In this document: positions 27-47,715 of the stretch, piece after piece | Layout: every line of letters begins with the position of its first letter | Position numbering within the stretch: the first letter of the stretch is position 1 | Assembly (NCBI GenBank): GCA_030062745.1 | Contig: CP099851.1 | Span: 5,829,661 to 5,893,660 of the forward strand | Direction of reading: 5' to 3' | Length of the DNA stretch: 64,000 nt | Origin: Capitulum mitella | Taxonomy: Eukaryota; Arthropoda; Thecostraca; Pollicipedomorpha; Pollicipedidae | Made by a program: the position numbers and the translations under genes | Notes under the pieces: model-generated | Seen by the model: only the letters and a program-made list of their open reading frames with translations | Database searches by the model: none | What the model was told of the DNA's origin: nothing

Positions 27-176
27 CAGGTTAGCCGCGTCAGCGTCGCCGCGGTCGCGCCGCAGCTCGTCCATCTGCCGGCGGCGCTCCTCGGTCTCCT
101 GCTCCAGCTGCTCGGTCAGCCGGCGGTCCTGCGACTCCAGCTGCTGCTTCAGGTCCGAGGCGTCCGCCGGCGACTC
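27..176 (-). CDS. Coiled-coil gene exon (last one inside the window)
   Basis: A phase-0 exon of 50 codons. Acceptor GTCCGCTCGTGCAG, donor AACCTG/GTGAGC. It encodes DLKQQLESQDRRLTEQLEQE and ERRRQMDELRRDRG. Its acceptor abuts the minisatellite at 177-600. The gene continues beyond position 1. Confidence 0.8.
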
Positions 177-3100
177 CTGCACGAGCGGACAGACAGAAGG
201 ATATCAGTGGAGCACGCACAGACAGACAGGCCGACAAGGGTGGACAGACGGACGGACATAAGATAGGGCACGCACGGACAGACAACTGGATACAGGTGGA
301 GCTTACACGGACAGACGGGCGGACAAGGGTGAACAGACGGACGGACGCAGATGGGGCACGCACGGACAGACGAGCGGACACAGATGGAGCACGCACGGAC
401 AGACGGGAGGACACGGGTGGAGCTTGCACTGGACAGACGGTCGGACACAGGTGGAGCACGCACGGACAGAAGAGCCGACACAGGCGTGGAGCACGCACGG
501 ACAGACGGTCGGACAGAGCGTGGAGCACGCACGGACAGACGGGCGGACAGGCGTGGAGCACGCACAGGACAGACAGGCGGACACGGGTGGAGAAGGCGTC
601 ACAAGAATGATAATCAGTGATTAAACGACAATAAAAATGAGATGGTCTCGATGTCTCCTCGTGGCTTAACCCACACTCAATACAGACAAACTGGTAGCAC
701 TTCACAGCGCATCCACACACGGGTAATGCTTAGTGTTAGTTCCGGCCTGACCTTCACGTCATCCTCCAGCATGTTGATCTGTCGCTTGAGGCGCTCCTGT
801 GAGAAGGTGACCGAGTCCATCTTCTGCGACATCTGGTCGCCCATGACGTAAAACCCGGCATCATCAGATCTCTCCGCCTGTCAGGAAAACGTCGCTTTGT
901 TAGTTGGTTGGTTATTGGGTTGTTTAAGCAGGGCAACATTGGCAGCTCTGAATCAATGGTATAGAAATGAGATAAGAAAACAAGATTCCAAGCCTCGAGA
1001 CAGAAGTAGACCAAACTCTGAGATGTCTGACGGACTGCACTGGATGGCACATGCTAGCGGTGAGGAGCACAAGCAAGGAAACATTAAGTCGAGTGGTCTT
1101 AAATGTGTGTACTGCACTGGTTCAAACACTATCAAATCCAAGCCTTCTGGAAGAGCGCAACAAACAGAAATCTGCCCACAAAAGACGCTGTCCATTGCCT
1201 TCGTGCCCACACCTCTATTCAGCACGAAGCGATTGAAACCGTGCGACCTCACTGACCATCCTGAGCTTGTTCTGAATGGCCTCGTCCTGCTGTTTCACCC
1301 TCGTGCTCAGCTCCGACAACTTCAGTTCGGTCTCCGCCAGGGACTTCGCCAGCTGTTCGCGCGCGCCCTCCGTGTTCATATTCTGCAGACGCTCGATCTG
1401 GGAGAAAAACAAGGCTGACTTTGAACCAGTTTTCTGGACCTAGAACTCGAACCAGATCTAGAACCTGATCTGCGAGTTTCGGACTGAACAGCTCATCGTT
1501 CTCTGACATACTTTGAGTGGCACGGGTGCGTTTTCTGGACTTCTGTGCGGCGGACGTGCGGTGCTGCCGCAAAGAAAGTAGCCACCCAAAATAGTATTTG
1601 TGATCTGCGACAGCTAACGTGATCGGTAGCTCAGCTGGTAAAGCGCTAGTCTCCCGTTCTGGCAAGGCGGGTGCGAGTCACTCCGGTGCTTGATATTTGA
1701 TCCGTGGATCAGCTGGCAGTTGTCCAACATAGGGTCAAGCTGACTACGACACGGCCGTGTCGCACCCTTGGCACGATTAACTTCCGTCACAGAATCATCT
1801 GTCGCCTGGAATTGTGCGATTGGGTGTAGGGGTTGGCGTCCATACAACGAACTCTAACTTAGCACGGGCTTCGATCCCTAACATAGCCCTATCAAAACAT
1901 TAGGATTTATAAATCTCGAATATTTGAATATATCAGATATTAGGATTTAGAAATATGAATATAAATATCAAAATAGGATTTATAAATATCGCATTTATAA
2001 AAAAAAAAAAGTCCTAAAAGCGACTGTGTCGTGGCTGTTGCCTCTTACGTCTTACAACTGCGTCCGGGGTCTCGCCTACAGTCGTTCCTGATGGACAAGG
2101 TGGCCTCCATGGCATAGCTGGCACCCGTCTCTCCTGTACCCACCTCAACACCAGATGCCGTGCCTCTGGTCTCTCCGCTGCTGTACCCACCTCAGCACCA
2201 GGTGCTATGTCTCTGGCTGGTTGCTGTACCCACCTCAACACCAGGTGCCGCGTCTCTGGCTTTCTGCTGTACCCACCTCAACACCAGGTGCAGTATCTCT
2301 GGAGCTGTTGTGCCTACCTCAACACCAGGTTTCGTGTCTCTGGCTGGCTGCTGTACCCACCTCAACACCAGGTGCCGTGTCTCTGGCTGCTGTACCCACC
2401 TCAACATCTGATGTCGTGTCTCTGGATGGTTGCTGTACCCACCTCAACACCAGGTGCCGTGTCTCTGGCTGCTGTACCCACCTCAACATCTGATGTCGTG
2501 TCTCTGGATGGTTGCTGTACCCACCTCAACACCAGGTGCCGTGTCTCTGGCTGCTGTACCCACCTCAACACCAGGTTCCGTGTCTCTGGCTGCTGTACCC
2601 ACCTCAACACCAGGTGCCGTGTCTCTGGCTGCTGTACCCGCCTCAACACCAGGTGCCGTGTCTCTGGCTGGCTGCCGTACCCACCTCAACACCAGGTACC
2701 GTGTCTCTGGCTGCCGTACCCACCTCAACACCAGGTGCCGTGTCTCTGGATGGTTGCTGTACCCACCTCAACACCAGGTGCCGTGTCTCTGGCTGGCTGC
2801 CGTACCCACCTCAACACCAGGTACCGTGTCTCTGGCTGCTGTACCCGCCTCAACACCAGGTACCGTGTCTCTGGATGGTTGCTGTACCCACCTCAACACC
2901 AGGTGCCGTGTCTCTGGCTGGCTGCCGTACCCACCTCAGCACCAGGTGCCGTGTCTCTGGCTGGCTGCCGTACCCACCTCAGCACCAGGTGCCGTGTCTC
3001 TGGCTGGCTGCTGTACCCACCTCAACACCAGGTACCGTGTCTCTGGATGGTTGCTGTACCCACCTCAACACCAGGTACCGTGTCTCTGGCTGGTTGCTGT

Positions 3101-47542: not shown

Positions 47543-47715
47543 GCTGGGGGGAGGCAGATGTAGGAATGTCCGGCAGTCTGGACAGGTCCACTCCTACGCC
47601 AGGGGAGGCAGGTGTAGGGATGTCCAGGCAGTCGGGGCTGGTCCACTCCTGCGTGAGGGGGAGGCAGGTGCAGGGACGTCTGGCAGTTTGAACTGGTCCA
47701 CTGTTGAGTTCAGGG
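47530..47715. repeat. 55-bp tandem repeat starting at the stop codon
   Basis: GGTCCACTCCT occurs at 47530, 47585 and 47640, with a diverged copy at 47695, exactly 55 bp apart. The first copy spans the final codons and TGA; in the second and third the TGA has become TAC and TGC. Confidence 0.9.

Follow-up and report, generated by a model that had tools for sequence, protein, structure and literature searches.

Minisatellites whose repeat unit spans an exon-intron border, and which carry coding bases along with the splice site, lie within three unrelated genes in a 64,000-nucleotide stretch of the barnacle Capitulum mitella (GenBank assembly GCA_030062745.1, contig CP099851.1, positions 5,829,661 to 5,893,660; this whole stretch is referred to below as the window). 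The genes encode CMAS, a membrane protein and a coiled-coil protein, and a first-pass annotation of this DNA was right to call them unrelated. Units that span borders and hold exonic bases also occur in genes picked regardless of arrays, and border copying is not confined to the window. The explanation that we favor, with a probability of about 0.72, is that ordinary local tandem duplication at times takes in a splice junction and is then tolerated, splicing probably keeping to the exon-proximal copy.

The first-pass annotation listed eight arrays as touching an exon border and took most of them to be copies of that border. Four prove to contain true exon-edge copies that include coding bases; in a fifth the donor is repeated together with no more than 3 exonic bases, two abut their exons, and one lies at the end of a coding sequence. 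Arrays were called with Tandem Repeats Finder (TRF), and copies were scored by aligning a probe of 30 exonic and 30 intronic bases with the remainder of its own intron, at a main score cut-off of 30 and a looser one of 24. The eight arrays are listed here, a slash marking the border:

34747..37635, minus strand: 61-63-bp minisatellite in CMAS intron 3, acceptor copies TATTTCAG/GCGGYGGTAYGT, overlapping the exon by 9 bp (TRF) or 12 bp (alignment).
46318..46608, plus strand: 34-bp minisatellite in membrane-protein intron 3, acceptor copies TTACAG/GGAGGTGTGTCCCAGTGA, its final 18 bp being the start of the coding exon.
38222..38900, minus strand: degenerate array of about 38 bp in CMAS intron 2, acceptor copies TTGACAG/GTGACCTGGAGCC, border score 33.
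11350..11561, minus strand: 32/64-bp array in coiled-coil intron 6, donor copies GACCAGGAGAACG/GTGAGC, exon overlap 14 bp, border score 51.
2134..3238, minus strand: 43-bp array in coiled-coil intron 11, 25 donor copies GAG/GTGGGTACAG, extending to the donor, border score 46.
3364..3590, minus strand: array of about 35/102 bp in coiled-coil intron 10, adjoining the exon 11 acceptor at 5 bp.
179..592, minus strand: 33-bp array in coiled-coil intron 13, adjoining the exon 14 acceptor at 2 bp and covering the polypyrimidine region, the AG excluded.
47530..47702, plus strand: 55-bp array of about 3 copies, running from the end of the membrane-protein coding sequence into the 3' untranslated region, at no splice border.

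Exon borders were fixed mostly from protein homology and phase, independently of the arrays, and some coiled-coil borders remote from arrays from phase and splice consensus alone. Mouse CMAS (1qwj) aligns across both array-flanked junctions of its homolog; the membrane-protein gene is colinear across five exons with orthologues from Pollicipes (P0121) and Amphibalanus (P0122), and the coiled-coil borders follow two barnacle orthologues from the same genera, these being the two relatives that word-limited protein searches gave for each gene. The membrane-protein gene (44592-47542) has no Pfam match, and the only two relatives found for it are both from barnacles. A TMEM184 model, built from a Pfam match and a TMEM184-like query sequence, completes a set of four genes with 23 introns and hence 46 borders. 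The exons that matter here are:

44592-44848, 45608-45717, 45948-46077, 46591-46744 and 47192-47542, plus strand: membrane-protein gene, with colinear barnacle orthologues.
46591..46744, plus strand: exon 4 of that gene, matched in the Pollicipes and Amphibalanus orthologues.
34095..34755, minus strand: last CMAS exon (CTP_transf_3), its 5' edge repeated in the array and its junction crossed by the alignment with mouse 1qwj.
38101..38239, minus strand: CMAS exon with a copied acceptor edge.
11548..11634, minus strand: coiled-coil exon 6, with EETRRT, a peptide shared with Amphibalanus, encoded at its 3' edge.
3236..3358, minus strand: coiled-coil exon 11, with arrays on both flanks.

Inspection of the individual copies bears out four of the proposed arrays. 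With 6 exonic bases as the minimum, 43 of 44 matches qualify in CMAS intron 3 (median 12), in agreement with the acceptor copies described at 34748-37250; 7 of 8 do so among those placed at 46320-46590 (maximum 18), where most units retain the AG. In the acceptor array at 38222-38900 all four matches qualify (median 12, maximum 23); this array is degenerate, and TRF reports only 38729-38884 within it. The donor copies noted at 11345-11547 stand as well: both matches are exonic, with up to 30 exonic bases, and the looser cut-off reveals five copies in 200 bp. The donor array first placed at 2120-3235 is a partial case. Its 25 donor copies are there, and its own donor reads GAG/GTGGGTACGG; the copies have only the 3 exonic bases GAG in common with the exon, so that this array may or may not derive from the exon. 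The supposed acceptor copies at 3359-3760 have to be given up, as none of 7 matches is exonic and only 2 reach the AG. The repeat at 177-600 does cover a pyrimidine tract, without involvement of the acceptor (0/9 matches exonic, 0/9 reaching the AG), and the repeat at 47530-47715, described as copying the stop codon, begins 10 bases ahead of that codon, keeps TGA in one of three later unit starts and continues into the untranslated region.

Borders of both kinds have been copied: donors at 11350-11561 and in two of the sampled myosin stretches introduced below (L024 and L032), and acceptors at 34747-37635, 38222-38900 and 46318-46608. Among copies that span the border, AG or GT is found near it in 41/43 for CMAS intron 3, 7/8 for the membrane protein, 3/4 for CMAS intron 2, 23/25 at 2134-3238 and 1/2 at 11350-11561; the splice dinucleotides are conserved about as well as the unit average, neither specially kept nor lost. 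Likeness to the border increases toward the exon in the two longest of the seven arrays tested (rho -0.59, P 3e-5; rho -0.63, P 7e-4); in the other five no trend reaches significance.

The direction of copying is clearest in the membrane-protein gene. Its exon starts (AG)G GAA GTG TGC CCC AGT GAT, as against (AG)G GAG GTG TGT CCC AGT GAC in the consensus of the array; all three differences fall in third codon positions, both versions encode REVCPSD, and the corresponding residues are EVCPSD in Pollicipes and EVCSSD in Amphibalanus. Synonymous differences in a peptide that is found in relatives make it most likely that the array was copied from the coding edge. The copied coiled-coil edge likewise encodes EETRRT, retained in Amphibalanus, and the copied edge of a sampled myosin exon encodes GYPS(R), continuing as WLYQEF in the next exon, which we take to be the usual myosin residue order. 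As judged by protein comparison, these clearest cases show the exon edge as the source and the array as the copy, because the copied bases encode conserved residues. The earlier statement that the working splice site is the end copy also holds in so far as the exon-proximal copy fits the proteins of relatives.

The window was chosen for this very feature. For a sample blind to arrays, we used myosin-head exons, of which the assembly (477,042,490 bases, 16 contigs) holds 86 matches; 67 of these were used, every one that fell within the fetched stretches (L024-L039), which had been picked for compactness and exon number. Their 134 borders include 24 that were not callable (a splice site below 2 on a matrix trained on window introns, or a short flank), leaving 110. 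Four of the 110 carry a tandem copy of themselves at a score of 30 (95% interval 1-9%), as compared with 2.05% of 6,000 intron-interior points (P = 0.19) and 3/1,100 in a control with foreign sequence; at a score of 24 the figures are 8/110 and 4.3% (P = 0.10). Between the window rate of 5/46 and the blind rate there is no significant difference (Fisher P 0.125). One candidate, the donor at L033 377-436 (score 37), was removed from the count since its match is a neighboring duplicated alternative exon; with it the count would be 5/110 (P = 0.077). Exon finding by codon usage in the first sampled stretches used five composites assembled from hand-picked segments, one of them shortened and other segments, often of low complexity, set aside; Pfam matches came for only a few exons.

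Clear multi-copy arrays account for two of the four blind cases. In L024 (contig C2, near 10684332), an exon that is presumably from a myosin V-like head ends GGATACCCGTCCAG/gtgggc, the GYPS edge mentioned above, and the roughly 400 bp after it hold 7 matches to its edge, the exon's own counted. In L032 and its extension L041 (C14, near 5784908), a 79-bp donor unit is present in 3.2 copies at 94%, the exon copy having a GT donor and both intronic copies GC. The acceptor in L029 and the donor in L025 are two-copy events. By eye, L028 and L029, from paralogous myosins on C14 and C13, have a common intron end and exon start, and L028 seems to hold a decayed remnant; given traces in both, the acceptor duplication may predate the paralogue split. 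Exon-edge copies below the cut-off were also seen by eye at L024 83-153 (score 27) and L025 547-606 (25), and the call of the L026 acceptor at 220-275 probably has the wrong position; a 19-bp array in that place adjoins an acceptor without copying it. Tandemly duplicated myosin exons cluster at C15:16425920-16428593 and C16:5450234-5453643; they all match profile positions of about 377-436, a pattern like that of mutually exclusive exon arrays.

Taken together, these observations fit a process in which local tandem duplication would affect short genic segments of about 20-80 bp in this genome and would, by chance, take in an exon-intron border in some of them. Selection on the protein would hold the copy that runs into the exon; with that copy fixed, extra copies fall on the intron side, and the array seems to end exactly at the exon. 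The additional splice sites would be tolerated because splicing keeps to the exon-proximal copy, and the intronic copies could then expand, homogenize and decay like any minisatellite. The duplication itself would occur by slippage or unequal exchange, with the extra copies near-neutral. Copy numbers form a series consistent with stages of one process, which we count in favor of this explanation: two copies in L029 and L025, 3.2 in L032, about 400 bp of array in L024, and 44 matches in CMAS.

Splice junctions might instead be hotspots for the initiation of tandem duplication, with R-loops, exon-end hairpins or a paused polymerase as conceivable triggers. The first-pass annotation had suggested a genome-wide tendency for duplication to start at junctions, and the question turns on comparison with intron interiors. 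Of 18 intronic minisatellites in the window, six end within 5 bp of a border, where placement at random inside introns would give 0.27. At a score of 30, 5/46 borders match their own intron and 0/46 match other window introns of comparable length; at 24 these counts become 8/46 and 1/46, the three extra own-intron matches being a GA microsatellite at the coiled-coil exon 1 donor (28) and the two abutting arrays (25, 24). Yet of 3,588 points drawn at random from intron interiors of the window, 21% also reach 30, minisatellites make up 22% of intron sequence in the window genes, and array coverage shows no rise toward borders (13% at 5, 10, 20, 40 and 80 bp, 21% at 160 bp, 8% at 320 bp). Array ends at borders do not prove that duplication starts there; they are also what selection on exons alone would produce, by halting arrays at exons. 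In the flanks of the window, 0/11 further borders reach 30 (maximum 27), and the blind excess is not significant, which leaves the genome-wide tendency unsupported. Minisatellites constitute 11.6% of the window, compared with 4.3% of 219 kb elsewhere in the genome (window flanks included) and 2.8% of the blind stretches with their short extensions L040-L041.

Some results nonetheless weigh against chance duplication with tolerance. Under a model of random seeding with the observed unit lengths, 1.02 of the 18 arrays would be expected to span a border, and 4-5 do (P 0.0125-0.0015), as targeting of junctions would have it; the blind border rate leans the same way as the window excess, 1.8-fold, without reaching significance. 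Folds of about 130 nt from two acceptor arrays beat their shuffles (z -4.3 and -3.2, one stretch per array), whereas those from two donor arrays are no better than theirs (z about 0); such folds need no place in a purely neutral account and are suggestive at most. The polarity of CMAS is weak, in that only single residues within the copied edges align with mouse. Exon-proximal splicing, finally, is deduced from the proteins of relatives rather than from RNA. We consider targeting unlikely all the same.

Extension of an intronic array up to the exon, with one of its units taking over the old splice site, as the first-pass annotation had also proposed, would suit the array at 2134-3238, whose donor, with 3 exonic bases in common, could be a captured unit; the arrays at 179-592 and 3364-3590, which adjoin exons without copying them, can be read in the same direction. 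Against such replacement stand the roughly 10 to 38 exonic bases inside the units of four window arrays and of L024 and L032, several of which encode residues common to other species; where they do, replacement is contradicted, and as a general explanation it seems to us improbable. Functional use of the multiplied sites in regulated alternative isoforms, such as CMAS with 21-residue insertions, appears more doubtful still. CMAS intron 3 does offer room for it, with 80 TTTCAG(G) sites; from 62 of them the reading continues into the exon uninterrupted by a stop, and 30 of the 80 keep the frame. Human IFI6 illustrates that such use can occur (in the account cited in PMC4526556). Elsewhere a wrong choice of site would in most cases carry a cost: splicing from the next donor copy of the array at 2134-3238 would add 43 nt containing a stop, and distal acceptors found by pattern meet a stop before the exon in 4/5 cases in the membrane-protein intron and 4/4 in CMAS intron 2. 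Nor is there a shared unit hinting at a common regulator; a genome search with the membrane-protein array, the only one searched in this way, matched that array alone. We regard it as very improbable, finally, that long-read assembly inflated or created the repeats. A poly-T/poly-G stretch at 10820-11104, a broken unit near 35750-35790 and an apparent frameshift near 15287 are odd stretches that could speak for it, and copy numbers could still be wrong in the assembly; individual units, however, carry distinct substitutions, divergence differs among arrays, and the pattern reappears on contigs C2, C14, C6 and C13 in the blind sample.

Several other features of the window were recorded in passing. 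The CMAS C-terminus contains one further repeat:

34127..34531, minus strand: 21-bp in-frame coding repeat with SEKVSVD-like units.

A neighboring DHHC-domain gene (L002 906-1475), unrelated to CMAS, also has a 21-bp in-frame coding repeat, with 7-residue units like YQRTDGV; the unit lengths of the intronic border arrays (32, 34, 38, 43 and 61-63 bp) are not restricted in this manner. In the coiled-coil gene, intron 6 includes about 237 noisy T followed by about 46 noisy G (10820-11104), which looks like sequencing or assembly noise, and in exon 3 the Amphibalanus homology changes frame mid-exon near 15287 (15335-15288, 15286-15197), a shift that is either genuine or due to misassembly. A perfect TC microsatellite (16928-17000) directly follows the first 6 intron bases at the exon 1 donor of that gene, and another (61439-61680, 121 units) lies about 74 bp downstream of a TMEM184 donor. 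Two similar tRNA-like element copies, seen by eye at 1610-1790 and 14800-15080 (GTAGCTCAGCTGGTAAAGCGCT and similar), are possibly a tRNA-derived short interspersed element. An intronless HSC70 at 30079-32031 is 98% identical to the Pollicipes pollicipes protein.

If splicing holds to the exon-proximal site, each array constitutes a natural competition test, in which a gene depends on one of up to dozens of near-identical splice sites. Pollicipes has 24,664 genes and 7.48 exons per transcript; with a similar gene number, the blind rate of 4/110 (1-9%) extrapolates to thousands of copied borders per genome, which would allow bulk measurement of cryptic splicing, of proximity rules and of the routes by which duplication leads to new introns. 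Blind borders are not depleted relative to intron interiors, which is unexpected if extra splice sites are usually harmful; in the window, borders with copies are rarer than interior points (5/46 versus 21%). It is doubtful that barnacle junctions are preferred duplication starts, by the order of two-fold or more over the interior, with several per cent of borders multiplied. Were that so, thousands of junctions would be testing spliceosome choice among near-identical sites, and the CMAS intron copies could add ladders of 21-residue inserts.

Contrary to the first-pass annotation, which knew of no described system of this kind, two have been reported. The amphioxus 'mirages' of the Adh, globin, troponin C and PGBD5 genes are minisatellite-like tandem duplications of intron/exon boundaries that affect both 5' and 3' borders, with AG/GT signals in many units, unit lengths of 10-72 bp (Adh3), 150-160 bp (globin) and 60 and 108 bp (PGBD5), regular splicing, haplotype and somatic length differences, and concerted evolution within the cluster (PMC3087553, PMC3902484). 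The barnacle arrays resemble them in that the unit spans the border, both border types are involved and many units, though not all, keep AG/GT; as to concerted evolution, what they show is the gradient in border likeness, in 2 of the 7 arrays tested. They differ in belonging to another phylum, in a longest array of 44 aligned border copies, and in a rate determined on genes not chosen for arrays; the barnacle arrays are known from one assembly. In human IFI6 (6-16), a minisatellite at the exon end provides several splice donors (Turri 1995, cited in PMC4526556). The likeness to the barnacle lies in repeated donors at an exon end; downstream IFI6 units are reportedly used as donors in transcripts, whereas in the barnacle it is the exon-proximal unit that is probably used.

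Intron gain by tandem genomic duplication has reportedly been treated by Rogers, by Zhuo in 2007, by Gao and Lynch in 2009 and by Hellsten in 2011. A potato RdRp case is described in PMC4974935. In such gains tandem duplication copies splice signals as it does here; in the barnacle only the borders of introns are multiplied, and no gained intron has been shown. Among the matches listed in open-licence literature we found no report of border copying for barnacles or other arthropods, and the keyword passages of barnacle genome papers and of a Daphnia repeat paper carry no remark on it. As amphioxus mirages and IFI6 are already described, the barnacle case adds a new lineage and a rate estimate rather than a new mechanism: what is new here is the lineage, the very long arrays, and a rate obtained on genes not picked for arrays.

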